A stretch of DNA of 64,000 nt from Natrinema pellirubrum DSM 15624 (GTDB lineage: Archaea > Halobacteriota > Halobacteria > Halobacteriales > Natrialbaceae), in the NCBI RefSeq assembly GCF_000230735.2, contig NC_019963.1, positions 186,001 to 250,000 on the forward strand, in the 5' to 3' direction. This document shows, piece by piece, positions 1 to 17,350 of the stretch. A model generated the notes under the pieces. It saw only the letters and a program-made list of their open reading frames with translations. It did no database searches and had not been told where the DNA came from. Both the position numbers and the translations under genes were made by a program. Numbering within the stretch: the stretch's first letter is position 1; the number at the start of each line of letters is the position of its first letter.

Positions 1-37
1 TCGTTGAACTCTCCACACTATGAGTCTCAACAACTTA

Positions 38-331
38 TCAATCATCCGCTGAATATGCTCCGTCTCGCTTCCGAACGCTCTCCACGCGTAAGATGCGTTC
101 TTCCGATCGAAGCCGACACCCCAGTCGATAGGTCCCAACTCGTAACTTCTTGTACGGCGAATTAGTCAATGGCTCAAGGAAGTCAGCTGGCTCGCGCCAC
201 TCTGAGGACACGACATCATCGAGTTTCGTGATGATTCGGTCCTGTGTTTCTGTAGGTAACTGCGCAAGTTGGTTTTCTGCTCGAGACGAAAATGCCCACT
301 CCCAATCGTCGTCATTCGTCGTCGGACCCAT
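38..331 (-). CDS. RelE/ParE-type toxin of a type II toxin-antitoxin pair
   Basis: About 97 residues. The layout, with a basic central part (SPYKKLRVGTYRLGCRL) followed by ERILRVESVRKRDGAY, is the usual one for the RelE/ParE fold: conserved LRVGxYR and a C-terminal strand with a basic patch. Such proteins are mRNA interferases or gyrase poisons. Which activity applies here cannot be told. The start is placed at the ATG ending at 331, because it overlaps the stop of the upstream antitoxin-like gene by 20 bases; a longer reading frame (to 418) would run far into that gene. The pair reads as one transcript with the antitoxin first. The assignment to the superfamily is firmer than the choice between RelE and ParE. 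Confidence 0.75.
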   Translation of the reverse strand: MGPTTNDDDWEWAFSSRAENQLAQLPTETQDRIITKLDDVVSSEWREPADFLEPLTNSPYKKLRVGTYRLGCRLRSEERILRVESVRKRDGAYSADD

Positions 332-587
332 ATGCTGCTTTGATTTCCTCGCTCGAGCGGCTCTCACCGTCATCAAACTGTGCTTCACTAATTGCAAGGT
401 CCTTCCAGAACCCAGCACCCTCCGGATGATTCACTGACTCTCGCAGTGCGTAGCGAATAAACTCACTTCGGCTATTGAATCCCCGCTCGCGCCACGTCTC
501 ATCAACGACCTCGCGGAAAGACTGGGAAATCCGAAGGTTGATTCGTTCAATCTCAGGATCACCATTGTTGGTTTCAGCTTCGGACAT
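312..587 (-). CDS. Ribbon-helix-helix antitoxin
   Basis: A 91-residue protein with an N-terminal strand-helix-helix pattern (IERINLRISQSFREVVDETW, then SRSEFIRYALRES). This is typical of CopG/MetJ-type DNA-binding antitoxins that bind as dimers and repress their own promoter. The acidic C-terminal tail is the expected toxin-neutralising part. The start is set at the ATG ending at 587; a longer frame to 614 adds only eight unremarkable residues. It precedes and overlaps the RelE-like toxin gene, which supports the pairing. Autoregulation is inferred from the family. Confidence 0.75.
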   Translation of the reverse strand: MSEAETNNGDPEIERINLRISQSFREVVDETWRERGFNSRSEFIRYALRESVNHPEGAGFWKDLAISEAQFDDGESRSSEEIKAAYGSDDE

Positions 588-780
588 ACGCTTGTACGTT
601 CGTAGTACATACACAAAACAGTACCGTCGAGATTGCTGAAATCAGATTATGGCCACACCTCACAACCGGTCCGTACAACCACGCAATGCGTTGTTCGTCT
701 CCCTGGTTGATTACAGTCATCGTTGAACTCCTCACCCCTCCGGGAGTCAATAAACCCGGCGGGGAGCGATGAATCGGGTT

Positions 781-2037
781 TCAGTCGCCGTCCCCAACGA
801 ATTGCTTTGCACGGCCCCAGATCGAGTCGCCTTCATTAGCACTGGCCTCATCCATCTCGGGGTTCGAAGCCTGATCACGACGCTCGAGTGTCTCCTGACA
901 GTCTCTGAGTTGTTCTCGAAGCGCTTCGTTGGTCGCCTCGAGTGCATCGATGCGTTCGTTTTTCTCCTCAAGCGTTGTCTCGAGGTCGTCGACGCGGTCA
1001 GTCAACAGTCGATTCTTCTCGACCAGATATGCATGATTTTCCGCTGGTTCGTCACGACTGCCGGTGATCGCCGACTCGTTCTGTCTGGAACTCGCTTCAC
1101 TCGAGTCGTCTCGAGCGTCCGGATCGTAGAACTCAGACGTGCTTGTAATCGCTCGTTCGATGGTCTTTTCGCCGTACGTCGATCCATCGGCATAGTGGAC
1201 GTCGTCCCATTTTTCGCGGAGAAGCCCTGACTGCCGGAAGAGTCGATCCATTCGAGTGTGGTCGCCGCCGGTCCAGAACGCCAGCAGACAGCACAGTGCC
1301 ATATCGGCCTCTGACTGGCTTTCGTACCCAGCAGTCGAGCCACGCCATAATCGCTCGAATTTCTCACCGTTCGACGCATTTCGAGCCTTCTCGAGCAGTT
1401 CCTCGTCCTCGAGGTCAACATCAACATCGCCTGCTGTGTCCGTCGAAGCCTGCTCGTCAGTCACACCACGGTACCCTGACTCGGACGCTCCATCGCTCTC
1501 ACTGTCTTTGACGTATTCACGATGAATCGCCTCGAGTGCATCCTGCCGACGAGCAACGCGACTAGGAGACTCCTCGAGGGTGTCACCAGTCACGGTGAAA
1601 AACCGGGCTGTGTCGTACAGTTCAATGCTTCCACGTCGATTCCGTCCGTCCGGGAGTTCACCCTCAATGAGTACATGGAAGCCAGTTCCCGACGGAGAAA
1701 TCTCCGTATAGGAATCAAGCCGCTCGATAATGTCCACTGCTAGGTCGTCGATGTCCCTAGTCTCCGGATTTCGGCAGTCATCGAGATCCACACCAACGAT
1801 AGGATCATCGTCGGTAAACACGAACCCGACGCCATCTGCATCCCCCGAATCAGCGTACTCGAGCGCGGTTTCGATCGACACCCATGTTTCGGGATCCGTT
1901 GAGGAGGCGAACTCACCACTGCCTGGTGTTACCGGGATTTTTGTTGGCTTCCCATCTCGAGGTTCTTCTCGCCAGCAGACCCACTGGTCACGCTCACGTA
2001 ACTGCTTGGGGAGTACCGAAACCGTCTGTTCAGACAT
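781..2037 (-). CDS. Primase-polymerase-like protein (AEP superfamily)
   Basis: A 418-residue protein. The N-terminal half has the three motifs of an archaeo-eukaryotic primase (PrimPol) core: DLDD around residue 84 (the DxD metal site), SPSGTGFHV at 114-122 (SxH-like), and IELYDTARFFTVTGD at 138-152. It resembles primase-polymerases of phages and plasmids such as the NrS-1 type. Residues around 225-310 form a helical domain (LLEKARNASNGEKFERLWRG and following, the type found after the polymerase domain). Residues about 335-400 are a predicted coiled coil. No helicase domain is present. The start at 2037 is preceded by a GAGG ribosome-binding motif; a longer frame to 2232 would run through the upstream repeats. 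It is the last gene of the conjugation block. DNA synthesis activity is inferred from the motifs. Confidence 0.7.
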   Translation of the reverse strand: MSEQTVSVLPKQLRERDQWVCWREEPRDGKPTKIPVTPGSGEFASSTDPETWVSIETALEYADSGDADGVGFVFTDDDPIVGVDLDDCRNPETRDIDDLAVDIIERLDSYTEISPSGTGFHVLIEGELPDGRNRRGSIELYDTARFFTVTGDTLEESPSRVARRQDALEAIHREYVKDSESDGASESGYRGVTDEQASTDTAGDVDVDLEDEELLEKARNASNGEKFERLWRGSTAGYESQSEADMALCCLLAFWTGGDHTRMDRLFRQSGLLREKWDDVHYADGSTYGEKTIERAITSTSEFYDPDARDDSSEASSRQNESAITGSRDEPAENHAYLVEKNRLLTDRVDDLETTLEEKNERIDALEATNEALREQLRDCQETLERRDQASNPEMDEASANEGDSIWGRAKQFVGDGD

Positions 2038-2136
2038 CGCCGATCCGCCTCGTACTTCGCGTCCATCTGGTCGCATACCACCCATCAGTGTGCTGATAAA
2101 CATGCCGTAGGCTGGTAGACTGTCCGTGACCCTGTC

Positions 2137-2155
2137 CAACGGGTGCAACCCGTTG
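2137..2155. repeat. Inverted repeat upstream of the PrimPol-like gene
   Basis: Perfect 7-base arms CAACGGG / CCCGTTG around a 5-base loop, about 100 bases upstream of the PrimPol-like start codon. It lies between that gene and the iterons at 2181-2266. It could be an operator, part of an origin, or a weak hairpin in the leader. The symmetry is seen directly; the role is not known. Confidence 0.5.
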
Positions 2156-2180
2156 TATACTAGTTGGTTTTGAGCGACGA

Positions 2181-2266
2181 TTTGCCCTGAACACCGCCAC
2201 CGTACTGCGGTTTTGCCCTGAACAGGTGCCAATTCCGTGACCTGAACGGGAAATTTGCCCTGAACA
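2181..2266. repeat. Iterons: three exact 13-bp direct repeats plus one degenerate copy
   Basis: TTTGCCCTGAACA occurs at 2181-2193, 2212-2224 and 2254-2266. A degenerate copy (CGTGACCTGAACG) lies at 2236-2248. The exact copies start 31 and 42 bases apart, close to three and four turns of B-DNA, so bound proteins would face the same side of the helix. The array lies in the 357-base gap between the VirD4-like gene and the PrimPol-like gene, upstream of the latter. Iterons near a replication gene suggest an origin of replication or an autorepression operator. Neither is proven here. Confidence 0.7.
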
Positions 2267-2394
2267 AATCCAGCTATATGGCGGATCCTGGCAGATATAC
2301 CAGATACTAATCGGATTTTGGAATTTTGGTTGTGGGGGAGAGATTTTCAGTAGTCCAAGTGCCTGAATTATATTCATTGCTCTGATATTATCTC

Positions 2395-5300
2395 TCACTC
2401 AAGGAACTCTGATCCATCACTGGTCAGATCGATACCGGTGTAGACCGTCACGAGATCGTCACCGTCTCTGACTCGGGTATCCCCATAGTCGACGACATTC
2501 GAAAGCTTCCGACCGAACCAGCTCGCGTTTGTTCCATCAATATCGTGCTGGTCGGTCCATCTCGAGTAGGCTTGAAACAGTGCTGCCTTTGGAATCTGTG
2601 CCCCATCTGCCTCTCTGATATACATCGCTGCGAACGCCTCAATGCCGTCGCCGTCTGGGTCAACCTCAACTGGCACCGATACTGCTGAACCAGACTTTAC
2701 TGATGGGGATGACTCCGTTACTCGAGAGTGATTACCTGAAGAGATCCTCGGCCATAGTTCCTCATCGCTTGGCGAATCCGACAAACCGTATGTCTCGCCC
2801 TGCTGGAAGAGTACAGGACGCTCATCGTCGGGGAGTATCAGAATGAGGTAGCTCTCCCGTGAATAATCCGAGTTTGGTAGATCAACAGCAGGTCGGAATG
2901 GCCGTTTGATCGGCGTCCATTCATCCTCAAAATCCTCTCTCGAGTCATAGACATGGGTTTCGCCAGCTTCGTAGACAGTATACTGCCCGGCTTCACGATC
3001 ATGGCTATAGTAGGCTGGTACACTGTCTTTCGAGAGTGGACCTTCATCTGGAACACGGGCAAACGCTGTTTCACCGTCTGAAAGGACGATCTCACCATTC
3101 TCTCGTATCCAAACAGTTCGATTCGTCTCAAATGTCTTGGGACGAACGGCAGTAACGCCACCGTGAGCGGTCGCACCACCACCGAAGGTCATGACCTCGT
3201 CGCAGTTGTAGAACTGTTCAGTGCCATCAGCCCGCTCTTGCAGCGGTGGTGAGATAATATTCTCAACTCGAGTCGCCCACTCCGTCTTGGAGTCACCAGG
3301 TCGAACGACGAAGATCGGAATCCGATCTGCTTCGTGGGCTCGCTTGAGATTCTGCAAGACCTTGACGGGTCGCTCTGGCGTCGTTGTCTCAGCCTCGATG
3401 TTGAACACGACATCGTGATCTGGATGCGTCGCGATGGCGTCCGGTTGCTCGCTTCCATCCTGCTCGAGGATTTCGACACTGAATCCACGTTCGATGAGTG
3501 CTGTTTCCGTCTCGAGGAGGACTGCATCGTGTGTAGAGCCACCGGCAGATCTGACAGTGCCTGTCTCAGGTTCGACCACTGTTTCTCCGTCGTCAGTGAG
3601 CCGAGCTACGATGTCGTCGTTTTGCAGCGTCACCTCGAGTAACCGGGATTCCTCACGAACGTCAGGCAACTCTTCGGGTGCAACGTCGATCTCAGGCTCA
3701 GTATCCTCGAGGCGGGCTGCAAGTTCCTCGTCGACGGTAGTGACATCGACCCAGCCGTTTTCCGCTCGCACGCGTTCTCGAATCTGAACTGCACGAACGG
3801 CTTCCGCCATCGTCTCCTCGAGAATCTGCGTGGGGTTCGCTGCTTCGTTCGAATCGCTATAGATGAGATCCTGCAGGATTTCAGCGTCCGTTAGCGGATC
3901 AGTCCCATACCGCTCGAGACTCTGTTTGATGATTCGATCGACAGCATCTGGTTCCCGAAGGGGTGGGTATGGCGGAAACGTCCGGATCAAGACCGGTTCA
4001 GAGTAGCGCCCACCCGAGAGCGGGATCCGTGTCCAGACTTTGAACTGGTCGGTCGTGATGAGGTCCTCTGCCGTATAGTCACGGAAGCGTTTCATCAACA
4101 GTTCGGCATCGTCACTGTCGTTGACTGAGAACGTGAGCAGGTTATCGCAGTTGTTCTGCATCGCCTTCAGCGTGTCCTCGTCGAACTGAGAGGGATACTG
4201 CGAAGCCAGAGTCACCGACAACCGCATCGACCGAGCACGGGCGAGCATTGACTCGATATCGAGATTGTCGCTCGCGATATCGTCGAACTCATCACAGAGA
4301 ACGAAGTAAGGTTCTGGCTCGGTATCGAGTTCGTATGAGCGCCGCTGAATCGCACTCCACAAATTCCGCATGACGCCGAGGGTAACCATCTTCTTGATGT
4401 CCGTATTCTCGACCGGCGTTCGAACGATAACGATCCGATCGTTGTCGATGATATCGCGGAAGTTGATTGTACTCTCGCGATGGGCGATAATCCGGCGAAT
4501 CACCGAGTTCTCGACCCAGGACTTGATCCGTTTCAAGAGTGGGCGGACCGTCTCCTCTTCCATATTCGCAATCTCGAGACAGAATTCTCGGATATAGGGA
4601 TCCTCGACATCGAGTGCGAAGTCTTCGCGACGGTCGGCATTCAGTAAGATGAAATACATATCGATGACCGAAAACGGCTGCTCGGATTTCATCATCGCCC
4701 GAGCCATCGACTCGGTGATCGCTTCCATGTTGATGCCCCAGTAGTCGGAGGTATCGAAGACCGCTTTCAGGTTCTCGACCCGGTTTTCGATCTCGTTCTC
4801 GAGTTCCTCAGTCGTCTCGCAGTCGGGCACCTCGAGGAAATTCATCCCGACCGTGTTCTCGTGGGTGGTCGACCCGGGCTCGATCCAGACCACGTCCTCG
4901 AGACGGTGTTTGGGAAGCATCCGGAGGAGTTCTCGAGAATCACGGCCCTTCGGGTCGAAGTACGTGAAGCCGTAGCCCGAATACGCCCACTGCACCATCA
5001 TATTCAAGAGTTGAGTCGTCTTTCCGTAGCCGGTCGTCCCTGCAATCCAGTTGTGCCGGAAGAGCGAGTCAAATCGGAGCGGAGCCTCACGAAAGCCAGT
5101 CTGGGGATCCTCCGTATAGCCGACCCAGAGTGGGGTCGGTGCGTCGTACATTCCAGCTTCAAACATTTCGCGAACGAACGGGCCAGCAACCGTGCCTTCG
5201 TCGACCGTTTCGGTGAGGATCGGCTTGCCACCGACACGGGTCGTGTCTTGGTCGACGACATGATATTCCTCACCAGCCATTGATTGCTGGTCAGTGGACG

Positions 5301-5406
5301 ACTCAGTGCCAGCATTCATGGATTTATCGTCTACTGGCTCGGACTCATTGCTTTGATCGCCGCTCGAGGCCTCCCCACCGTGTCCGAAGAACCGATCAAA
5401 TACCAT
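2395..5406 (-). CDS. Type IV coupling protein (VirD4/TraD-like ATPase) with extra C-terminal domains
   Basis: A 1003-residue protein. Walker A is GTTGYGKT (123-130) and Walker B is CDEFDD (371-376), followed by a sensor region SVTLASQYPSQF; this is a VirD4/TraG-type DNA-pumping motor. Residues about 585-710 look like a different domain, with PDAIA (D656) followed by FNIEAET (E671, E673), similar to a PD-(D/E)XK nuclease core though without a clear lysine. The last about 100 residues (AMYIREADGAQIPKAALFQAY and on) resemble the winged helix found at the C terminus of P4/D5-type primase-helicases. The start at 5406 has a strong AGGAGG signal. The gene overlaps the preceding gene by 11 bases. The usual N-terminal domain is encoded separately, in that gene. 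Confidence 0.85.
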   Translation of the reverse strand: MVFDRFFGHGGEASSGDQSNESEPVDDKSMNAGTESSTDQQSMAGEEYHVVDQDTTRVGGKPILTETVDEGTVAGPFVREMFEAGMYDAPTPLWVGYTEDPQTGFREAPLRFDSLFRHNWIAGTTGYGKTTQLLNMMVQWAYSGYGFTYFDPKGRDSRELLRMLPKHRLEDVVWIEPGSTTHENTVGMNFLEVPDCETTEELENEIENRVENLKAVFDTSDYWGINMEAITESMARAMMKSEQPFSVIDMYFILLNADRREDFALDVEDPYIREFCLEIANMEEETVRPLLKRIKSWVENSVIRRIIAHRESTINFRDIIDNDRIVIVRTPVENTDIKKMVTLGVMRNLWSAIQRRSYELDTEPEPYFVLCDEFDDIASDNLDIESMLARARSMRLSVTLASQYPSQFDEDTLKAMQNNCDNLLTFSVNDSDDAELLMKRFRDYTAEDLITTDQFKVWTRIPLSGGRYSEPVLIRTFPPYPPLREPDAVDRIIKQSLERYGTDPLTDAEILQDLIYSDSNEAANPTQILEETMAEAVRAVQIRERVRAENGWVDVTTVDEELAARLEDTEPEIDVAPEELPDVREESRLLEVTLQNDDIVARLTDDGETVVEPETGTVRSAGGSTHDAVLLETETALIERGFSVEILEQDGSEQPDAIATHPDHDVVFNIEAETTTPERPVKVLQNLKRAHEADRIPIFVVRPGDSKTEWATRVENIISPPLQERADGTEQFYNCDEVMTFGGGATAHGGVTAVRPKTFETNRTVWIRENGEIVLSDGETAFARVPDEGPLSKDSVPAYYSHDREAGQYTVYEAGETHVYDSREDFEDEWTPIKRPFRPAVDLPNSDYSRESYLILILPDDERPVLFQQGETYGLSDSPSDEELWPRISSGNHSRVTESSPSVKSGSAVSVPVEVDPDGDGIEAFAAMYIREADGAQIPKAALFQAYSRWTDQHDIDGTNASWFGRKLSNVVDYGDTRVRDGDDLVTVYTGIDLTSDGSEFLE

Positions 5407-6583
5407 CGTACCCCTCCTGATCGTGAGTAGGGCCATCAACGGGAACTGCTGCCTCGTCGGGGACACTGGATGTCTGTCCACCAACCGGTGACTCCTCAGC
5501 ATCGTATCGAGCCCCATCCGATGGAAGCCGGTCACCACGCTGCGTGTATCGCCAGTCGATCTTCGGCGTCTCAATTTCCGCATTGGGAATATGTGCGACG
5601 CCGGCGAGTTCGTCGACGGTCATGATCATACGGCGATCGATCCACTCGCGGTCGCGCATTCGAGAGAGGAATTGTCGGAGTCGTTTAGCTCGTTTCCGCT
5701 CTTTGCGATGCCAGACTGGAGTATCATCGAGTCCCTGCTCCGTAACCGCGTTGTAGTACTTCCTGAACATCCCCGCAACGCCGCGGGCTCGAGCCTCGGC
5801 TTCAGCCTTCTCTGATGACGCAGCGAGTACGCGGATATTCACGTGGAACGCCTGTTGCCCGCGTTGCTGTTCGATCGTCTTTGCGGCCTGCTTGTCCTTG
5901 GCGCTCGCTGGTCGTGTTCGGGGGCTGAGCCACCCCACGGATGTCCCTTGGCGAAGTGCGTGAGCGAGTTCATCGACGCTGTTGTGCTTGAAGCGGTCGC
6001 CATCAGTCCACGACTGCTTTGCAGGCCGGAAAATAACCTGTGTGACGACTGTATTCTCGTCGAGTGACAGCATTTCGCTCGTTATCTCGCCGTAGGGATC
6101 CGTCTCGAAGCCTTCGCTGTTGTGATGGCGAATCGGATAGTACGGAATTTTCTCCATCTCGAGCCACGCACCGGCAACGTACTGGTCAGAATCGATGACC
6201 GGGAACGTATGGCCCTTTTCGACAGGGAAAATCTCACTGTTCGCGTAGTTGTTCCCGACACGCCGTCGGAACTTGTCTGCGGCTGCCTCGGTAGCAGCGT
6301 GCATATAGAACGAAATTTTGCCCTCATCGAACCAGACCTCGAACGAATGGTGATCACTCGTATTCTTCCCGCGGAAGTTCGTCGTCACGTCGTGAACTGA
6401 TTGCAGGACGCCGGCCCCATCCACGACACCATTGTTCTCCTTGTAGGGGCGGATCCGAAGGAGCAGTCCTGGCGTATCTGCTTGCTGCTGGACGAACGAT
6501 CCCTTCTCTCCAAACTCGAGTTGCGTCGCCTCGTACTGGGGCGACGAACCGACCAGTTTCGTGAAACGATTGAGCGTCGTCAT
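5396..6583 (-). CDS. Conjugation protein, likely the detached N-terminal domain of the coupling ATPase
   Basis: A 395-residue soluble protein without a P-loop. The stretch FHVNIRVLAASSEKAEAEAR and the later MTVDELAGVAHIPNAEIETP, followed by a KIDW element, match the region that precedes the ATPase core in single-chain VirD4/HerA-type conjugation proteins (an ELAxLxHxPN...TPxIxW pattern, from memory of that family). The next gene supplies the missing ATPase core, so the two products probably act as one complex at the inner face of the membrane. The start is at 6583, four bases after the stop of the VirB4 gene; longer frames run into VirB4. The C-terminal tail is low-complexity and acidic. The domain assignment is inferred. 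Confidence 0.65.
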   Translation of the reverse strand: MTTLNRFTKLVGSSPQYEATQLEFGEKGSFVQQQADTPGLLLRIRPYKENNGVVDGAGVLQSVHDVTTNFRGKNTSDHHSFEVWFDEGKISFYMHAATEAAADKFRRRVGNNYANSEIFPVEKGHTFPVIDSDQYVAGAWLEMEKIPYYPIRHHNSEGFETDPYGEITSEMLSLDENTVVTQVIFRPAKQSWTDGDRFKHNSVDELAHALRQGTSVGWLSPRTRPASAKDKQAAKTIEQQRGQQAFHVNIRVLAASSEKAEAEARARGVAGMFRKYYNAVTEQGLDDTPVWHRKERKRAKRLRQFLSRMRDREWIDRRMIMTVDELAGVAHIPNAEIETPKIDWRYTQRGDRLPSDGARYDAEESPVGGQTSSVPDEAAVPVDGPTHDQEGYDGI

Positions 6584-6587
6584 GGTC

Positions 6588-9500
6588 TTAATTGTCACAT
6601 TCGGGGTCGGTTGTGCGCTGGTCGGGAGCTGACGCTCCGCCATCGGTCTGGATCGGTGCCTCTTCGGTGTCCGTCTCTGTCTCAAGAGCCTGTTCGACGA
6701 CTGCATCGAGGATTTCCGTTTTGCTGAAATCTTCTTCGAGGAGTTTGCTCGCCGTCTCAGCAGTGATATCGAGGCGGGTCGCAAGCGCGTTTTGTTGTGC
6801 TTCGGTTTCGACGAATTCCTCGAACGCGAGCAGTTCCGCTGAATCGTCGTTCATCGCCTGCTGGATGAAGGCCTGATCCGCTGGCTCGTAATCGATAACC
6901 CGCTTCTCGAACTCATCTGCGACCACGTGCAAGGGATAGGTGCCGTGTTCCTCAACGCGAACGAGTGCCTGACTGTAGCCGAGGTCCGCTTTCCCGGCGT
7001 CGGCACCTCTGACGTACTGGCGCTGTTCTTTCGTCAACCCGATTTTGTCGGCTGTCCGATCGTCAAGTTCAGGGAGTTTGTGGAAGACTTTGATCGGACA
7101 CATCCCAATGATCTTCTCGGCCTGCTCGGTCTCATAGAACTCCTGGGCCGTCTGAGAGAGCAAGACCATCCGGAGGCCAGCGTGGCGTTGGTGGCGGAAC
7201 GCCGTCTCGAGGAAGTCGAGATTGGCCTGATCCTCGAAGAGGTAGTGTGCCTCGTCGATCGCGAGTTCGACGTTCCGTTGGGTGTTCTTCGCCTGCTGGT
7301 AGATCGTCGATAGCAGTAGTTGCATTAGGAACGTCTGGCGGTCAATCCCCGAGGCGCTCCCCTCGATCTGACCAAGATCGATGTAGACGACCTTGTTGTC
7401 GCCCTCGAGGATATCGATCTCCGAGCGGTGGGAGAGGTTTTCGTAGGAGCCACCTTCGCGGAACGGCTGGAACGCAATCGCGAGTTCGTCCGCGTACTGT
7501 GCGGCACGTTCGCGAGCGGATTCGGATGCTGCAATGTTGTGTTCGTCCGGGTTCTCAGCGATATCACAGAGGATCCGGTGGATGTCCTGCATCGTCGGCG
7601 AGTTCTCTGATGTGTGCGTCGAGACGTCGTCCTCAACGATCCCTTCCTGTCGGTAGGCTTCGTCGATCACATACGAGAGGACACCAGTTTCGGCCCCGAG
7701 TTCGATATCACGAGCGTCGAGGAAGTTCTCGAGAACGGCGTAGACCTCGTCTTTCTTCGCCGAAAGGGGAGAGACCCCATCGCTGGACTCGAACACGTTC
7801 TGGGGCGTCTGACGGATCTCGAGGGGATTCAATTTCGTATCGCCCCCGACGGTGATTGTCTTCGCGTTCAGGGCATCTGCGATACCACGGAAGCCGCCGA
7901 CTGGATCGACGAGGACAAGCATCGTGTCGGTGCGCCGCTTCATCATCCGCAGGTGGCGCATAATCCCACCGAACGTCTTTCCAGCGCCGGGCATCCCGAC
8001 GACGAGTTCGCTGTGGCCCGTCTCGAGATTCCACGGATTGATGCGGATTGGAGAGCCATTGTGGCCGTGATAGCCGTACTCGATTCCGTCGTCCATCATC
8101 TGGTAGTTCGACGAGAACGGAAACATCGCGCCAATGGCCTGATTGGTCAGCGTCGACATTCGATCGCGACCGAGTTCGTTCCGACCGAGCGGTGAGACCG
8201 TTGCGAGTCCTCTCTCCTGCCATCGACTCGCGACTTTCAGCGTACAGTTGGCTGGTGCGTCTTTGATGATCGAGCGTAATCGAGTCGTCTGATTCTCGAG
8301 TTCCTGCTGACTCTCGGCAGCGAGGCGAATGAACACACCACCCCGATAGAATGACGCTTTGTTCGCTCGGACGAGCGACCGCATGTACTTCGCCTGGTCG
8401 ATATCGTCCTGCAGATCTTCGGCTTTGAGACTGTTCGAATCATGCTGGTTGATCTTCAAATCCGAAATCCAATCTGCCATCATGTCTTGGGCCGACTGAC
8501 TATCGAACGGATCGAGATGGATGCTGAGATCTGTCTGCAGATCTGTCTCGAGTAAGAGTCGCTCGAGAAGCCCATCGGATGGTTCCTCAGGGAACTGTTC
8601 GATCCAGAAGGTGCGAACGAACGTCTCGTCGTTGATCACGGCGTAGGTCGTCTCCCAATCGATCGACGACGGAGCAACCACTGACTGGTGCATCGTCGAC
8701 GTGTCCGGCAGACAATCGGCGTCGGAAACCGACGGTTCGTCAGCAGTGTCTTCTTCATCGAGATCCTCGAGGGAGTACTCCCAGTCCGCAGTTTCGTCAC
8801 TGCTGTCGTCCATCGCATCGATGACATCCTCTGGATCTGGCGTTGCTGGCACACCATCGCTGATGCCGTGAGAGACGACTGGGAACGTTCCGAGTGCGTT
8901 CGTGATATCGGCGTAGTCTTGCGATTGGCACGTCCAGTACTCCTTCGTGACTCGAGCGAGGTCATACGCGTCGACGGGGCTGATCGAACACCGATAGAGC
9001 GACGATCCACCTCGGCGGAGTTGTGCGAGTCGCGATTCGAGTTTCTCTTCTTTGAGTTGGTCGCGCTTGGACTCACTCAATTCCTCAGACTGAAAGCGAC
9101 CGAAGAGTCGCCCGAGAACTGGTACATCTACGAGATAGGACAGTACACTATCACCGGTTTCATCGAACTGTTCGATGTCGCTGTCGGTCACCGAAGTGAT
9201 GAGATAGTACTCTCGGATTGTCGTCTTTTCAGAGTCGATATCCCCATTTTCAGTCGTGTTGGAGGAGACGTACTCCTCGAGGAGGCGCTTCAGGACTGGC
9301 CGCGAGCGAACGTCAGTATCGCCAAGTCGATTCTGGTGTTCGCGAACGACGTCGTCTTCGTCGATTTCGCGGCTAGTGATGTAGATCTTCACGGGGAAGT
9401 CGACAGTCGAATTGACGAACTCTGAAAATGACTGCACGGCATTCGCCCAAGCCTCGTCGTCCTCGAGGGCCATATTCGCCGGTTCGACTTTCATCGCTCC

Positions 9501-9896
9501 GACGAGTGCGCCATCGGTTCGTTCGATGGCGTGTGGATACACCCGATTGAGACGGGTCAAATAGCGAACTTCGCTGTTGTCCTCGCCACCATGTGTGTAC
9601 TCCTTGTTCTTGATCGCCCAGCCGAATCGAGCGATGAGCCATTCGGTGAGCCAGAGGTAGTCGGGTTTGACTTTGTGGAGGAGGAAGAGAAGGATAATGA
9701 GCATGATCCCGAACCCGAGAATAGGAATCGTCAGTGCAGAGGGGACGAACGTTGCTGCGATGACGGTGACGAACGCCACCGTGAGAAACAACATGAGTTC
9801 GCCGATCGTGTAGCCTTGGAAGAACGCTGTCGTGCCACCCAGTGATTGATGAATTTTCCGTGCATTGTACTCGCTGTCTGCTGTATTCGAACTCAT
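6588..9896 (-). CDS. VirB4-like conjugation ATPase with VirB3-like membrane N terminus
   Basis: A 1102-residue protein. Residues about 30-80 form two membrane segments (FLTVAFVTVIAATFVPSAL, ILGFGIMLIILLFLLHKV), resembling the VirB3/PrgI domain often fused to VirB4. The ATPase has Walker A GMPGAGKT near residue 637 and Walker B LAIDEAHYLF near residue 880. A charged insert with many D/E residues (about 365-400) is a halophilic addition. VirB4 powers pilus assembly and substrate transfer at the cytoplasmic membrane. The ATG ending at 9896 is preferred over a GTG at 9908, because a GAGGTGGTGA ribosome-binding motif lies just upstream. It follows the VirB6-like gene closely and precedes the coupling-protein genes. 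Confidence 0.9.
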   Translation of the reverse strand: MSSNTADSEYNARKIHQSLGGTTAFFQGYTIGELMLFLTVAFVTVIAATFVPSALTIPILGFGIMLIILLFLLHKVKPDYLWLTEWLIARFGWAIKNKEYTHGGEDNSEVRYLTRLNRVYPHAIERTDGALVGAMKVEPANMALEDDEAWANAVQSFSEFVNSTVDFPVKIYITSREIDEDDVVREHQNRLGDTDVRSRPVLKRLLEEYVSSNTTENGDIDSEKTTIREYYLITSVTDSDIEQFDETGDSVLSYLVDVPVLGRLFGRFQSEELSESKRDQLKEEKLESRLAQLRRGGSSLYRCSISPVDAYDLARVTKEYWTCQSQDYADITNALGTFPVVSHGISDGVPATPDPEDVIDAMDDSSDETADWEYSLEDLDEEDTADEPSVSDADCLPDTSTMHQSVVAPSSIDWETTYAVINDETFVRTFWIEQFPEEPSDGLLERLLLETDLQTDLSIHLDPFDSQSAQDMMADWISDLKINQHDSNSLKAEDLQDDIDQAKYMRSLVRANKASFYRGGVFIRLAAESQQELENQTTRLRSIIKDAPANCTLKVASRWQERGLATVSPLGRNELGRDRMSTLTNQAIGAMFPFSSNYQMMDDGIEYGYHGHNGSPIRINPWNLETGHSELVVGMPGAGKTFGGIMRHLRMMKRRTDTMLVLVDPVGGFRGIADALNAKTITVGGDTKLNPLEIRQTPQNVFESSDGVSPLSAKKDEVYAVLENFLDARDIELGAETGVLSYVIDEAYRQEGIVEDDVSTHTSENSPTMQDIHRILCDIAENPDEHNIAASESARERAAQYADELAIAFQPFREGGSYENLSHRSEIDILEGDNKVVYIDLGQIEGSASGIDRQTFLMQLLLSTIYQQAKNTQRNVELAIDEAHYLFEDQANLDFLETAFRHQRHAGLRMVLLSQTAQEFYETEQAEKIIGMCPIKVFHKLPELDDRTADKIGLTKEQRQYVRGADAGKADLGYSQALVRVEEHGTYPLHVVADEFEKRVIDYEPADQAFIQQAMNDDSAELLAFEEFVETEAQQNALATRLDITAETASKLLEEDFSKTEILDAVVEQALETETDTEEAPIQTDGGASAPDQRTTDPECDN

Positions 9897-9901
9897 CTGA
9901 A

Positions 9902-11113
9902 TCACCACCTCGAGACCTTTTCTTTGGTGTTTCTGAGTCCTTGCTTGGCTTTGATCGACGTTTTTCGTGTGACCTGTTTGGCGTCGTCTTTGGCTTTGTC
10001 GCGCATCCGGCCCGAATCCGATTTCCGGAGAGTGTTATACTGGCGTGCATGGGCTTTCGTCGAGTTCGCTGATTGACCCAGCTTGTACGCTTTCGAACTG
10101 CCGCTCTCGAGTTTCGTCTGGCCGGTTTTGGTCACCGGACCGTACTTTCCGTTTGCGTAGCCCCGGTGGACGTTTCGGGCACCACGCACAGCACTCCCAG
10201 AGGCAGCTTTTGCTTTGCTAGCTCCAGCAGCAGCCGATGCCGGATTCGTGGCGGTAACACTCTTCTGGGCGATCGTCCGGACAGCAGGGCTGCTCCAGTA
10301 GACGGTCATGATCATCGCAATGATCGCGGCAGGAATCAGCGTCAACCCAATGAATAGCGCGAAAAGCTCATTTTGGCCGAGTGTCTCAATCCCACCGACT
10401 TCCCATCCAATTCGGAAGAGAAGCGCCGCTGGAACCCCAGCAAGTATGAGTCCGGGGTAAATCCCTGCTACTCGACGGGCCATATTCGCTGCTGGCGTGA
10501 ATGGCCAGACTTCAAGAGCCCAGATAACGCCTAGGAGCGGCATAGTGACCGTCAGCACGAAAATTCCGATCCACCGGAGAGCAACGACGAATCCAGCAAC
10601 AACTAGGAAGAAATTCGAGATGACAACCATTGCGAGAATCACAAACGTACCTCCAAGAGTCGCTTGAATAAGCCCACCAAGGCCTGCAGACATATCATCA
10701 ACCGGAGCAATAGTCGTACCAATTGCGTCGACAAATTGCAACGGGATCGACACCAACGGGAACCAAACGAAGGTTCCCATAAATACGATCCCTAGCCGCC
10801 TCAGAAGGCGTTTTCGACGGTAATCACTCATCGAACCTGCTCGAAGGCCAATGAACGAGAAACAGATAATTACCATCATAATCGCTAAGGGCATGATATA
10901 CGCCAGATACACATCCTGATACAAACTTGCCCAAGGCTCCCCACTTGGAGTCCCAACAACAATATACTGCGAGTCAGATTCCGGTGCCGGAACGCCGATA
11001 ATAGGCTCTAAGAGTGCTCCGTAGATATCGTTTACCAGCCCAAGAATTGCGTCAGTGAACCTCTCAATAACGTTTTCAATCCCATCTTCGACTTGGTCCT
11101 GCAGCCATGGCAT
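9902..11113 (-). CDS. VirB6/TrbL-like polytopic membrane protein
   Basis: A 403-residue protein with about seven hydrophobic segments between residues 70 and 275 and a long basic, Ala/Gly/Lys-rich cytoplasmic tail (about 285-403). This topology and its place between the lipoprotein and VirB4 genes fit the VirB6/TrbL channel component of type IV secretion. Archaeal members are very divergent, so the call rests on topology and context rather than motifs. The start ATG at 11113 lies directly beside the stop of the lipoprotein gene (11114), so translation is probably coupled. It also has a well-conserved WPFTPAANMARRVAG segment of unknown role. Confidence 0.7.
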   Translation of the reverse strand: MPWLQDQVEDGIENVIERFTDAILGLVNDIYGALLEPIIGVPAPESDSQYIVVGTPSGEPWASLYQDVYLAYIMPLAIMMVIICFSFIGLRAGSMSDYRRKRLLRRLGIVFMGTFVWFPLVSIPLQFVDAIGTTIAPVDDMSAGLGGLIQATLGGTFVILAMVVISNFFLVVAGFVVALRWIGIFVLTVTMPLLGVIWALEVWPFTPAANMARRVAGIYPGLILAGVPAALLFRIGWEVGGIETLGQNELFALFIGLTLIPAAIIAMIMTVYWSSPAVRTIAQKSVTATNPASAAAGASKAKAASGSAVRGARNVHRGYANGKYGPVTKTGQTKLESGSSKAYKLGQSANSTKAHARQYNTLRKSDSGRMRDKAKDDAKQVTRKTSIKAKQGLRNTKEKVSRW

Positions 11114-11989
11114 TTAGTTCTCACCACTAGTAGAATCCGAGTCAGTTGGACTGCCCTTGACAATCGTAAGGTCACAAGATTGGTCATCACCATACTCGAT
11201 TTGCTGTGTGTACGACGGATCTGGTCCCACCTGAACGACAGCTGTCACTGTCATCGGTTCAGTACCTAACCTGCTACAGTCCACCGAACCTCCTGCACCA
11301 CTCGTCTGGTAGATTTGGCCAAACGAATAGACAGTCGTCTCTCCGGGTGGCAAACGTATCTCATGATGATACGAGACTGTGTCGTCTCGACCTAACTTGG
11401 CGGCTGGTGCGCCTTTCCACTGAAGTTCGGTGAGTAGGGATGGAATCGTTCCCTTGTTCTCTATGACAACTGCCGCATACTCATCCCAGACTGGTGAGTT
11501 CTTGTCCCAGTCCATGTCTGGATTCTCTGCCGCCCAGAACACGTCGGTGATTCTGCACTCTGCATCGATCGAAATCGTCGTCGAGTCGAGTGGATCCTCG
11601 CTCTCGAGACTCTTGAGAGCGATGAGTTCGTACTCGCCAGTCGGAAGGTCGTCTTCATATCTGCCGAGAATCTCGAATGAGGCTTCAGTATCGTCTTCCT
11701 CGAGACGGGATTGGTCGAATAACTCGCCATTCGGATCGACGAGGTTGATGAATTCGGTTGCACTCTCCCCAGTGACTTCGACCTCGAGATTCTTCCCGTT
11801 CATCTCGACGTTCGCGAAGACATCACTGTCCTCGGTGTCGAGTCCAGAGCTATCCTCTGTACTATTGTTCGACGGACTCGTGGAGGAGTTTGACGTACAG
11901 CCAGCAAGTGCGGCGGTACTCAATCCGATACTGACAAGCACTGATCGGCGAGCGATACAACTCTCGTAAGTTGGATTGTTATCTGTCAT
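11114..11989 (-). CDS. Tat-exported lipoprotein of the conjugation operon
   Basis: A 291-residue protein. The N terminus has a twin-arginine element (ARRSVLVS), a hydrophobic stretch, and a lipobox LAGC followed by a Ser/Thr/Asn-rich linker, the standard form of a haloarchaeal lipoprotein anchored outside the membrane. The rest is a beta-rich acidic domain with two cysteines near the C terminus. No enzyme motif is seen. In this operon position it may play the part of VirB7 or a surface stabiliser, which is an inference from context. The ATG ending at 11989 is used rather than a TTG six codons upstream. It overlaps the preceding gene by 11 bases. Confidence 0.7.
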   Translation of the reverse strand: MTDNNPTYESCIARRSVLVSIGLSTAALAGCTSNSSTSPSNNSTEDSSGLDTEDSDVFANVEMNGKNLEVEVTGESATEFINLVDPNGELFDQSRLEEDDTEASFEILGRYEDDLPTGEYELIALKSLESEDPLDSTTISIDAECRITDVFWAAENPDMDWDKNSPVWDEYAAVVIENKGTIPSLLTELQWKGAPAAKLGRDDTVSYHHEIRLPPGETTVYSFGQIYQTSGAGGSVDCSRLGTEPMTVTAVVQVGPDPSYTQQIEYGDDQSCDLTIVKGSPTDSDSTSGEN

Positions 11990-13742
11990 CGGTATCTGTG
12001 AGTCCAAGGAACGTGCCGCCAGTCAGGTAGTCAAACCCGTAGACGGCTAGGACAACTGGGAGGAACCAGAGCAGCGTTACGAGCGCTAACTGGACGAGTT
12101 GAGCGAACTTCGGATACTTCGGTGGGATCTTCGCCCGATCCTCTGCAGTAGCGTACATCGTCTCTGCACGCCACCAATCCTCAGCAACGTATGTTCCGTC
12201 GACTACGAGCGATGGCCGTTCTTCGAGGTGGAGTCGAGCCATGCCACTGGCGTTGAGGGGAGCCGACTGGTTGCCGACTTCCACACGCCCAGTCGTCACT
12301 GGCTCTCCAGTTGCATTTTCCGTCACTGTTGCTTCGACGACTGCTCCCGAGGAATCGGCCTCGAGTACGGTCAGATTGAGATTGGTTTCGCGAACGATGC
12401 CGTCGTCCGCGAGCGAGACTGTTTGTGACTGGCCGCGAACAATGCCGTGAACGGTGACCGTGTCAAACGAATCGGCTGTAATCGATTCTGACTGCAGCGC
12501 CACGGACGATGAGTTTACGTACTGATCGACAGGGGTAACGTCGATTGCCTCAGCAAGGGACGGCCCAGCATGTTCACTCCCCCAGGCGTCTTCGATCTCG
12601 AGCGGTGGTTCGACCGTCTCCGTCGAGCCGCTCGAGACGTCCGGCTCCGCCTGCATGGGGACCGCGTAGAGCTGTGCCGGACGCACTGTGGAATTTGCTC
12701 GCGTCGTCTCGGTCTCTGTCCGTGAGACCATCGTGTGCCAGCCGGCGTCGCCGGCGGAATAGAAGCGCCAGTTCCCGCGAACTCGTATGTCATCGTTGGT
12801 CTCAATTGCCGACCAGACAGTACCTGGGTGAACGACAGCGCCCGTCTGCTCATCATCGGTTTCGAATGTCGTCTGGGTTCCAGTGGCAGTGTCGAATCGG
12901 TTGACAGTGGTGTTGCGCGAGTCGGTTACTGTGAGTTGTTCGAACGGATGGGTGAGTTCTGTCTCCCACGAGCCATCACAGGAGTCTGTACTCTGATTAT
13001 ACTCGTCACACGTCCGCCGTTCGTGGCGGAGTTGAGCAGAGATATCCACTTCAACTGTCAGCGTTGGGTCGCCTGACAGGCCGCTATACTCGAGGGTTGA
13101 CTGGTGGCTGGTGTTGGAATCCAGTTGCTGACCAGCGGCCCGAAGCTCAACCTCTTCGAGTTCCGCTTCCTCGAGGGACCACTCCTCACGCACTGGGCCG
13201 CTCTCACGATCGTCTGGAACCGCGACTCGATAATCAGCTGTCGCAAGTACCTCGCCTTTCGGTGCGATATATGTAGTCGACTCGGTACCCGACTGGAGGA
13301 CCGTCGATGGCTGAACAGCGAAGATGCTGGTGTGTGCGTCTTTGATGTACTGGCCATCCTCGAGGTCAGCCGACTCCGGATGAACTGACGTTGCTGCATC
13401 ACCAGCAGCATACTCACCGAAATCGCCACGGTTCCACTGCTCGACATCCTCGATCGGGTCGTCGAACAGGTAGTCCGTCGACCTCGAAAGGCGCTGTGTG
13501 AATTCTGCAGACGACGACGCGTTTACATCGAAATCGTCACTCGAGAGGTTTTCCTGCTCTGTATCTTCTGACCACAGCAAATAGAACCGCGACTCGTTGA
13601 CGCCGTTATCAGGCCCACTTGTAGGGACTGCTGTACTCGAGTGTGAATCCGCTGCGAGAATTGTGGTACTCGCAAGGCCAGCCACGAGACTACTCGTGCC
13701 GAGGAGGGCGACCACAACGAGCATCGAACGGGACGGGGCCAT
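11979..13742 (-). CDS. Large secreted membrane-anchored protein of the conjugation operon
   Basis: A 587-residue protein with an N-terminal signal peptide (MLVVVALLGTSSLVAGLAST) and one C-terminal membrane segment (LVQLALVTLLWFLPVVLAVY). The 500-residue part between them is acidic, Thr/Ser-rich and would face the outside. It carries many N-x-S/T sequons, suitable for archaeal glycosylation, and a pair of cysteines (RRTCDEYNQSTDSCDG). No catalytic motif is recognised. The two-ended anchoring and operon place suggest a surface scaffold or mating-contact protein; the function is not established. The start is at the ATG ending at 13742, 11 bases downstream of the pilin stop. Confidence 0.65.
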   Translation of the reverse strand: MAPSRSMLVVVALLGTSSLVAGLASTTILAADSHSSTAVPTSGPDNGVNESRFYLLWSEDTEQENLSSDDFDVNASSSAEFTQRLSRSTDYLFDDPIEDVEQWNRGDFGEYAAGDAATSVHPESADLEDGQYIKDAHTSIFAVQPSTVLQSGTESTTYIAPKGEVLATADYRVAVPDDRESGPVREEWSLEEAELEEVELRAAGQQLDSNTSHQSTLEYSGLSGDPTLTVEVDISAQLRHERRTCDEYNQSTDSCDGSWETELTHPFEQLTVTDSRNTTVNRFDTATGTQTTFETDDEQTGAVVHPGTVWSAIETNDDIRVRGNWRFYSAGDAGWHTMVSRTETETTRANSTVRPAQLYAVPMQAEPDVSSGSTETVEPPLEIEDAWGSEHAGPSLAEAIDVTPVDQYVNSSSVALQSESITADSFDTVTVHGIVRGQSQTVSLADDGIVRETNLNLTVLEADSSGAVVEATVTENATGEPVTTGRVEVGNQSAPLNASGMARLHLEERPSLVVDGTYVAEDWWRAETMYATAEDRAKIPPKYPKFAQLVQLALVTLLWFLPVVLAVYGFDYLTGGTFLGLTDTDDR

Positions 13743-15650: not shown

Positions 15651-16895
15651 TTAAGCAGAATCTATCTCGTTAAGGGCTTCCGTAGCAACATCGCCCAATT
15701 CGCCGGCCTCAATATGCGAATACCGTTCCCGCACCATTTCCTCGGAGTTATCAAGGTACCGGGCGGCAGCAGTGTATCCGAATGCCCGGACAAGAACTTC
15801 ACCCATCCCACGGCGGCCGCCGTGGGGTGCGAGATAGTCGTGTTTCGGATGATCAATGTCGATCTCTGCGATATCTGAGAGTCGTTGGAGAATCGACCGT
15901 GCGCCATCCGTCGTAATCGACGGTGGCCGAATATCCTCGTCGAGCGCCAACAAGAGGTCTCGAGCAGACTCCTCTCGTAGGCCATCGATTGAATCTGGGT
16001 GTTCCCCTCGATCGGCTAGCTCTTCCTGCACGAGTCCCGCGAGCGTCCGCTGGTCGAACGTCGGGAACACCGGCCAGCGCTCGGTTGGTGGGTTCATGAG
16101 TTTCCGGTAGCTCCGCAGCGGCGAAATTACCGGGTCAGGGAGACTCGCTGCGTCCCACTGCTGTTTCTTCCGGTAGACATCCATACTCCCGTCCTCGAGC
16201 GAGATCTCCTCCCAACGGATCCCGCGCCGGCGCGGGTCGTTCGGATCTCGAAGCAGTTCCCCGACACGAACAGCTGTGTACGCGAGGACGAACACGAGGG
16301 TTCGGTCACGAGACGCCTTCAGCGCCTCGTATCGCGCTCGCTGCCTGTCAAGTGGATCAACATCCTCCGGAAGCGTCGTGTACGTCTCAATGGCGTTGCG
16401 GGCTCGCTCGTCGACATAGCGGGTGAGTGCGTGACGCTGTTCAGACGTCCAAGCCTGCTGGTCACCGGGCTTACGGCCGTCATCCTCGGGAAGCGGCGCC
16501 ATCGCACTCGCCCGCTGGGCATAGTGGACTTCGAGGTAGCCCTCATTGACGCACCAGCCGCACCATGCAGAGATATAGCGGTAATAGGTTTGTACAGTAT
16601 TCTGTTTGAGTCCTCGATCACCGGCGAGGTGACGAGCGTACTCGCGGAACACGTGTTCGTCGAGGTCCTCAAAGATGGGTTCTCGGTCGATGTCGTCAGC
16701 AACGATTCCGGTCCAATCGTCATCGCCGCGGTCGCCGGCGGCCCACCCAGAGAACCGTTCGAGTTCGCGTGCTGCGTTTCTTCTGTAGTTCCCGCCATCG
16801 CCACCGCGGCCCTTCCCTTTGTCTTGCAAGTAGCGATCGAAGGAACTGGCGAGTGACCGCCCGGTGCCTTCTCTAGATACTTTCTCGGAGGTCAT
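15651..16895 (-). CDS. Tyrosine recombinase (phage-type integrase)
   Basis: A 414-residue site-specific recombinase. The N-terminal SAM-like core-binding domain is around residues 15-150 (SSFDRYLQDKGKGRG, then LKQNTVQTYYRYISAWCGWC). The catalytic domain shows the first Arg in AYTAVRVGELL, the H-x-x-R box in HGGRRGMGE, and the nucleophile Tyr in MVRERYSHIEAGEL. All key residues needed for strand exchange appear intact. The start ATG overlaps the stop of the preceding gene as ATGA. It is the last gene of a three-gene minus-strand operon with a winged-helix protein. It would integrate or resolve the element that carries it; no tRNA or att duplication was recognised nearby. Confidence 0.9.
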   Translation of the reverse strand: MTSEKVSREGTGRSLASSFDRYLQDKGKGRGGDGGNYRRNAARELERFSGWAAGDRGDDDWTGIVADDIDREPIFEDLDEHVFREYARHLAGDRGLKQNTVQTYYRYISAWCGWCVNEGYLEVHYAQRASAMAPLPEDDGRKPGDQQAWTSEQRHALTRYVDERARNAIETYTTLPEDVDPLDRQRARYEALKASRDRTLVFVLAYTAVRVGELLRDPNDPRRRGIRWEEISLEDGSMDVYRKKQQWDAASLPDPVISPLRSYRKLMNPPTERWPVFPTFDQRTLAGLVQEELADRGEHPDSIDGLREESARDLLLALDEDIRPPSITTDGARSILQRLSDIAEIDIDHPKHDYLAPHGGRRGMGEVLVRAFGYTAAARYLDNSEEMVRERYSHIEAGELGDVATEALNEIDSA

Positions 16896-17350
16896 GGTTC
16901 CCCGTTTGCGTATTGGTAGGTCGGACGGATCTCCTGAAGGAGGTCTTCGACGATTTCCCAGAGGATTAAAGAGGGTGTTCCGTGTTCGAACGTGATTCCC
17001 CACCGATCATCCTCCTCGGCGGCTGCATACTGGAAATGTGCCCGGCCGAGATCGGGGTGATCCTCGTCTTGGTGCCATCCAGCATGAAAGCCTGTGTTCG
17101 GGTCGGTGTAGTTGATACGGAACCAATCGTGGGGGTCCTGTCGGTACCATTTGATGGTTAGTTCCGGTGATTCAGGACCGGTAGGAGGATCAAGGAGGGT
17201 CGGATCGAAAATCGCCCGCAATTGCTTAGCCTCGATATCGTCTGGAACGTACTCGATTGCCGTGATCTGTGGGACACGGTCGAGGACATCCCGCTTCAGC
17301 TGGGCATAGAGATTCGCGTTCGGGTCACCACCGGGATGCGGGACCGACAT
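16892..17350 (-). CDS. Hypothetical protein of the integrase operon
   Basis: A 152-residue acidic protein. The first half carries a VPQITAIEYVPDDIEAKQL segment and a beta-rich WYRQDPHDWFRINYTD stretch; the second has aromatic strands and a terminal helix (LILWEIVEDLLQEIRP). It resembles small haloarchaeal proteins encoded after winged-helix regulators, in a layout like a toxin-antitoxin or recombination-accessory pair. No catalytic motif is seen. It lies three bases after the winged-helix gene and overlaps the integrase start, so the three are almost certainly co-transcribed. Confidence 0.6.
   Translation of the reverse strand: MSVPHPGGDPNANLYAQLKRDVLDRVPQITAIEYVPDDIEAKQLRAIFDPTLLDPPTGPESPELTIKWYRQDPHDWFRINYTDPNTGFHAGWHQDEDHPDLGRAHFQYAAAEEDDRWGITFEHGTPSLILWEIVEDLLQEIRPTYQYANGEP

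Follow-up and report, generated by a model that had tools for sequence, protein, structure and literature searches.

Iteron arrays with a conserved core beside a VirD4/TraG-type coupling protein gene: a candidate transfer origin of haloarchaeal plasmids

In bacteria the roles in conjugation are divided among a relaxase, an accessory DNA-binding protein and a coupling protein (T4CP), and the transfer origins (oriT) of plasmids such as F, RP4 and R388 consist of an inverted repeat and type-specific repeats beside the transfer genes, with orphan copies on small plasmids. The Streptomyces translocase TraB, which is FtsK-like and moves double-stranded DNA without a type IV secretion channel, recognizes its target through a C-terminal winged helix, and the target site clt is located near traB. 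The recognized sequences are the 8-bp TRS repeats at clt (PMC4170104). Archaeal conjugative plasmids are stated to have no recognizable relaxase (PMC9905601), and an earlier survey found very few relaxases in archaea and suggested that there are unknown ones (PMC3158045). Among replication systems, the alpha protein of phage P4, a primase-helicase, binds origin repeats with a winged-helix domain (PMC4234260), ORF904 of the Sulfolobus plasmid pRN1 combines an AEP primase with a winged helix and has an origin-like site (PMC4234260), and the polymerase of phage NrS-1 has the recognition site TTTGGTTA (PMC8718748).

The locus described here is located in a 64,000-nt stretch of Natrinema pellirubrum DNA (the window), which is part of the 276-kb contig C2 of the genome, and it has something in common with each of these systems. 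Like a bacterial oriT it has an inverted repeat, type-specific repeats, adjacent transfer genes and orphan copies, but no relaxase is detected by Pfam in the operon of the window, and recognition is proposed to be by the T4CP itself. As in the TraB/clt system, short plasmid repeats occur together with a translocase that carries a C-terminal winged helix, here judged from sequence and fold, whereas the ATPase is VirD4/TraG-like, belongs to a VirB4/VirB6 operon and contains a nuclease-like domain, with a conserved core sequence and a primase-polymerase (PrimPol) gene after it. The winged helix is folded like the origin-binding domain of P4 and stands beside an iteron array, but it is fused to a conjugative ATPase, and in P4 the domain is part of a primase-helicase that acts in replication. 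The PrimPol shares the HBD domain (PF22763) with the NrS-1 polymerase, and the NrS-1 site has a hexamer in common with the complement of the core, but the C-terminal helicase domain is absent. An AEP primase and a winged helix are linked to an origin-like site also in pRN1, where in contrast a stem-loop with no iterons serves as the origin and an SF3 helicase is part of the protein; in the present locus the functions are divided between proteins, with an ATPase that is VirD4-like. Neither the array nor the T4CP architecture was found described in the open-licence literature, which is weak evidence of absence.

Table 1. Features of the iteron locus and the adjoining genes, with positions in the window.
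Feature	Position	Strand	Evidence or remark
PrimPol, AEP type, with NrS-1-polymerase-like HBD and no helicase, 418 aa	781..2037	-	PF22763, E=6.6e-32
Conserved core AAAACCAACTAGTATACAACGGGTTGCACCCGTTGG (gene strand)	2136..2171	-	Outer inverted repeat CCAAC (2136-2140) / GTTGG (2163-2167); local hairpin 2137-2144/2148-2155
Iteron 1	2181..2193	-	TGTTCAGGGCAAA on gene strand; position -26 from core
Iteron 2	2212..2224	-	Position -57 from core
Iteron 3, degenerate	2236..2248	-	Position -81 from core
Iteron 4	2254..2266	-	Position -99 from core
VirD4/TraG-type T4CP with nuclease-like domain and winged-helix tail	2395..5406	-	Pfam TraG-D_C, TrwB_AAD_bind, T4SS-DNA_transf
C-terminal winged helix of T4CP, proposed iteron-binding domain	2398..2661	-	Fold match and co-segregation with iteron type
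PD-(D/E)XK-like nuclease domain of T4CP, proposed processing nuclease	2752..3558	-	AF2 pLDDT 86.9
Operon protein between T4CP and VirB4-like gene	5396..6706	-	Best Pfam 0.036 (not meaningful); NCBIfam none
VirB4-like transfer ATPase	6588..9908	-	NCBIfam conju_CD1110 3.2e-52, below curated cut-off
TrbL/VirB6-like membrane protein	9902..11113	-	Pfam TrbL_3 1.9e-16

The array is built from the 13-mer TTTGCCCTGAACA, which is present in three exact copies on the forward strand, starting at 2181, 2212 and 2254, with a degenerate copy between the second and the last, and no further exact copy is found across the whole 64,000-nt window. A threefold 13-mer was obtained in 0 of 3000 dinucleotide shuffles of the region 2038-2394, and the three exact repeats and one degenerate copy reported in the preliminary description are confirmed. 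That description also noted a near-helical spacing, which is correct for the distances of 31 and 42 but is lost once the degenerate copy is counted (31/24/18), and a hairpin with 7-bp arms beside the repeats, which is present but has arms of 8 bp. It had seen the array and the PrimPol gene, but had overlooked the core, the T4CP's DNA-binding tail and the paralogues of the locus in other parts of the genome. No Rfam family matches positions 1-12000 of the window.

The core, with the pattern AAAACCAACTAGTATA[G/C] or a close variant, is located about 100–175 bp upstream of PrimPol in most of 80 haloarchaeal loci with PrimPol homologues, and it is more conserved than the adjoining iterons. A scan of 392 genomes of the order found the pattern in 77, and the reversed control pattern matched once; the core matches in genomes G171 and G327, which either lack an iteron array or could not be confirmed as a core, were taken as chance. 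The outer inverted repeat is conserved and wider than the hairpin, and its pairing is kept through double changes such as CCGAC/GTCGG and ACGAC/GTCGT; 99% of the cells are paired, and the covariation exceeds that of all 500 shuffles and of all slid controls. In the clade with TCCACGC iterons the outer repeat is lost. The 8-bp-arm hairpin folds on its own (-9.3 kcal/mol, z -2.3) but is poorly conserved as a hairpin and was rejected as a functional unit, its pairing being barely above that of shuffled controls, which the outer inverted repeat exceeds. The complement of the core, CTAGTTGGTTTTG, has TTGGTT in common with the NrS-1 primase site, a short match that may be due to chance.

In the window the array adjoins transfer genes, namely those for the T4CP and the VirB4-like ATPase, and a T4CP gene is found upstream in most loci. 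In almost every complete locus about 150–270 bp separate its end from the core (328 bp in locus L075). The three Pfam families of the T4CP are above threshold, FtsK_SpoIIIE reaches only E=0.15, and the NCBIfam matches SXT_TraD (5.6e-9) and conju_CD1115 (8.6e-8) are both below their curated cut-offs. Pfam Relaxase (PF03432), the only relaxase family searched genome-wide, has no match in this genome and is positive in one of 41 genomes; matches above the cut-off are present in genome G014 at C3:29697-30053 and C5:22533-22889. Upstream of the transfer operon there is a tyrosine-recombinase-like gene at 15651-17003 (minus strand, Phage_int_SAM_5), and a DDE transposase gene (PF01609) is located at 18425-20050 (minus strand).

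The last part of the T4CP, about 77 residues, is a winged helix in the AlphaFold2 model of the tail, resembling the DNA-binding domain of RFX (1dp7, Z 12.1), and it can also be superimposed on the origin-binding domain of phage P4 (1ka8, Z 9.3, rmsd 2.2, 80 residues). For the model of the middle region the top VIA-align rows are mostly PD-(D/E)XK nucleases, with PaqCI at Z 8.7 and FokI at 7.9, and further rows include Can2, EndoMS, Hjc and the nickase BspD6I, at Z values of 7–9 that are moderate. This nuclease-like region is strongly conserved in both T4CP families, and the residues PD, E-x-E and K are invariant in 43 of 43 T4CPs, with a glutamate replacing the lysine of the canonical ExK; an ExE in place of ExK has a precedent in BamHI.

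The catalytic motifs of the PrimPol (DLDD, SPSGTGFHV and ELYDTARFF) are intact, and no helicase domain was found by Pfam in its 418 residues, as had been stated in the preliminary description. Over its N-terminal half it matches PHROG 1829, annotated as DNA primase, at 7e-97. The N-terminal part of this one phage primase family resembles PrimPol and its C-terminal part resembles the tail of the T4CP, and the match of the two proteins to its two ends suggests that the tail is derived from a primase of PrimPol's own kind. Downstream of PrimPol, at 38-614 (minus strand), a ParE-like toxin (PF05016, E=5.6e-4, just under the cut-off) lies beside a ribbon-helix-helix protein (PF01402), and these two are likely to constitute a toxin-antitoxin pair. 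In two loci, L184 and L225 (Halococcus dombrowskii plasmid), the T4CP and the core are present and the downstream PrimPol homologue is absent.

In the same genome the array is found, with orientation and spacing unchanged, upstream of three paralogous PrimPols, of which C2 carries one and the 288-kb contig C3 the other two, and each of these two plasmids carries two arrays of one type. Both also encode several Orc1/Cdc6 proteins, and the array is therefore not needed as the sole origin. Near-matches to the repeat on the chromosome are single and isolated and were taken as chance. Arrays of sequence-diverged types precede most of the haloarchaeal PrimPol homologues tested, and the iterons differ from locus to locus, with TTCAGGG, TCCACGC, TTCCACCC, TTACGGCA, TTACGACA and others as types, which were assigned by eye from computed repeats. 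Measured from the core, the iterons keep almost the same positions within each of two geometries, -99/-81/-57/-26 for direct repeats and -112+/-89-/-60-/-15+ for mixed orientations. Genome G000 has a module with T4CP, array and PrimPol at C3:23321-28018, and the ORFs listed upstream of this T4CP include no gene of VirB4 size. Another module, with a longer shared operon, is found on the same contig.

The iteron type follows the winged helix of the T4CP. As a predictor of whether two loci have the same iteron type, the identity of the winged helix gives an AUC of 0.983, against 0.89 for the rest of the T4CP and 0.78 for PrimPol. Pairs of T4CPs with an identity of 85% or more outside the winged helix were counted after near-identical loci had been collapsed, with relatedness only partly corrected; where the winged helices are at least 60% identical, 77 pairs have the same iteron type and two have different types, and below 60% none has the same type and 63 have different types. 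In both exceptional pairs the types are TTCAGGG and the related TCCGGGGT. The pattern is illustrated by loci L072 and L066, whose PrimPols are 97% identical and whose T4CPs share 93% identity apart from the winged helix, whereas the identity of the winged helices is 38% and the iterons differ; in the reverse case PrimPols up to 95% identical are found beside T4CPs with only about 30% identity. In four such swap pairs the DNA identity is mostly 80–100% up to about position -750, falls to roughly 26–78% from -700 to -1, and is back at 96–100% in the first 50 bases of the core, indicating that the exchanged cassette consists of the T4CP tail and the iterons and ends at the core in these four pairs; the boundaries are blurrier in a fifth pair, L050/L049. 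In addition, one position of the recognition helix is occupied by K in every scored locus of a TTC/TCC type and by R in those of TTA types, with relatedness uncorrected. That the iterons would be recognized by the winged helix of the T4CP is thus well supported by the sequence comparisons.

Iterons and core also occur without either gene, for example on plasmids of Halobacterium sp. DL1 and Natribaculum and on pHG4. By tblastn of the core loci examined, six orphan arrays (L182, L215, L224, L232, L235 and L238) lack a T4CP as well as a PrimPol gene, L182 being on a plasmid of Halobacterium sp. DL1; L183 is a weak orphan array, L211 retains a fragment of PrimPol and L240 a fragment of the T4CP. 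The L183 array is near a gene of 1268 aa that by eye looks like an SNF2-type helicase, possibly in a defence island. L224 is the 35,465-bp plasmid pHG4 of Haloferax gibbonsii ARA6, which encodes an Orc1/Cdc6 and a ParA of its own and is at present classed as non-mobilizable; over the whole plasmid there is no PrimPol or T4CP match at E below 0.1. Its array segment can be aligned over 496 bp to Haloferax modules, with about the last 140 bp of the T4CP gene remaining, and array and core are better conserved than this adjacent remnant. The plasmid collection, searched for H. gibbonsii ARA6, yielded no helper T4CP of the matching type. In the annotated orphans, on the DL1 plasmid, on pHG4 and in Natribaculum luteum, there is no co-oriented gene just downstream of the core. 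Taken together the orphan arrays fit a candidate transfer site that is used in trans, in the way small mobilizable plasmids use oriT, better than a promoter or an origin acting only in cis, and some of them may be relics, as L240, L211 and pHG4 keep pieces of the genes.

We consider it probable that the region 2136-2266 is a transfer origin of the oriT/clt kind, recognized by the T4CP, and that PrimPol primes the transferred strand. We infer a series of steps in which the winged-helix tail of the T4CP would bind the four iterons at their fixed distances from the core, so that the ATPase is loaded there, and the T4CP would cut or nick at or near the core with its PD-(D/E)XK-like domain. The ATPase of the T4CP would then feed the DNA to a channel of the VirB4/VirB6 type, and the complementary strand would be primed by PrimPol, whose gene comes next after the core. 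A wider proposal, which we put forward tentatively and with rather less than even confidence, is that a single haloarchaeal T4CP unites the roles of relaxase, accessory DNA-binding protein and coupling protein while PrimPol restores the second strand, which would make this a relaxase-free form of conjugation with its own type of transfer origin.

The preliminary description had interpreted the repeats as a plasmid origin with PrimPol as the iteron-binding initiator, and the array is indeed real, conserved next to the PrimPol family and in some way origin-like. We too started from a replication origin bound by PrimPol, an idea that fell behind after the swap analysis. The initiator role is not supported, as PrimPols with 97% identity have different iterons, the iteron specificity tracks the T4CP winged helix and not PrimPol, and arrays exist without any PrimPol gene, so that the coupling of array and PrimPol is only positional. 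Of the two observations named in that description as counting jointly against a plasmid origin, Orc1/Cdc6 genes are found on both plasmids, but the repeats, when searched beside PrimPol homologues, are conserved as an array with a sequence that varies by type. An iteron replication origin might instead be modelled on phage P4 and NrS-1 with the activities split over two proteins, the T4CP-type ATPase opening the DNA with its P4-like domain and PrimPol starting synthesis at the core. The fold of the winged helix, the match of PrimPol and winged helix to the two ends of PHROG 1829, the TTGGTT shared by the core complement and the NrS-1 site, the PrimPol gene adjoining nearly all non-orphan arrays, and direct repeats near a replication-type gene and conserved beside it would all suit such an origin. 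It is nevertheless unlikely, given the several Orc1/Cdc6 genes and the two arrays of one type on each plasmid, the orphan arrays that lack both proteins, one of them on a plasmid with its own Orc1/Cdc6, and an ATPase that belongs to the VirD4/TraG family and is encoded in a VirB4/VirB6 operon.

Another reading takes the core as the promoter of PrimPol, with GTATA as a TATA-like element and a palindromic operator, and the iterons as regulator sites that might be bound by the T4CP tail for autoregulation; an operator of an autorepressed primase had been suggested in the preliminary description too. The distance of the core from PrimPol, its TATA-like element and inverted repeat, and the T4CP and PrimPol genes being neighbours are consistent with regulation. 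Across genera, however, the conserved stretch of the core is longer than a promoter requires, and one would not expect the sites of a regulator to be exchanged along with one coupling-protein domain. The annotated orphans, with no co-oriented gene just downstream of the core, led us to demote this explanation, which we now regard as very unlikely, and they leave the autorepressed-primase operator weak. A centromere, or a site-specific recombination site where an element-encoded recombinase carries out the swaps at the core, would agree with the swap boundaries coinciding with the core in four pairs and with the tyrosine-recombinase-like gene in the window. The iteron type follows the T4CP tail, though, and not a partition or recombinase gene, and the boundaries can be explained by homologous exchange between conserved flanks, which makes this possibility hardly credible.

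As a candidate transfer origin, the site supplies a defined DNA target, a putative domain for reading it and a candidate nuclease. Repeats recognized by a translocase are already known in Streptomyces (PMC4170104), but a confirmed role of the nuclease would make this a system of a new kind. If the proposal is true, archaeal plasmids could be typed by their transfer origin, and mobilizable ones among them could be recognized.
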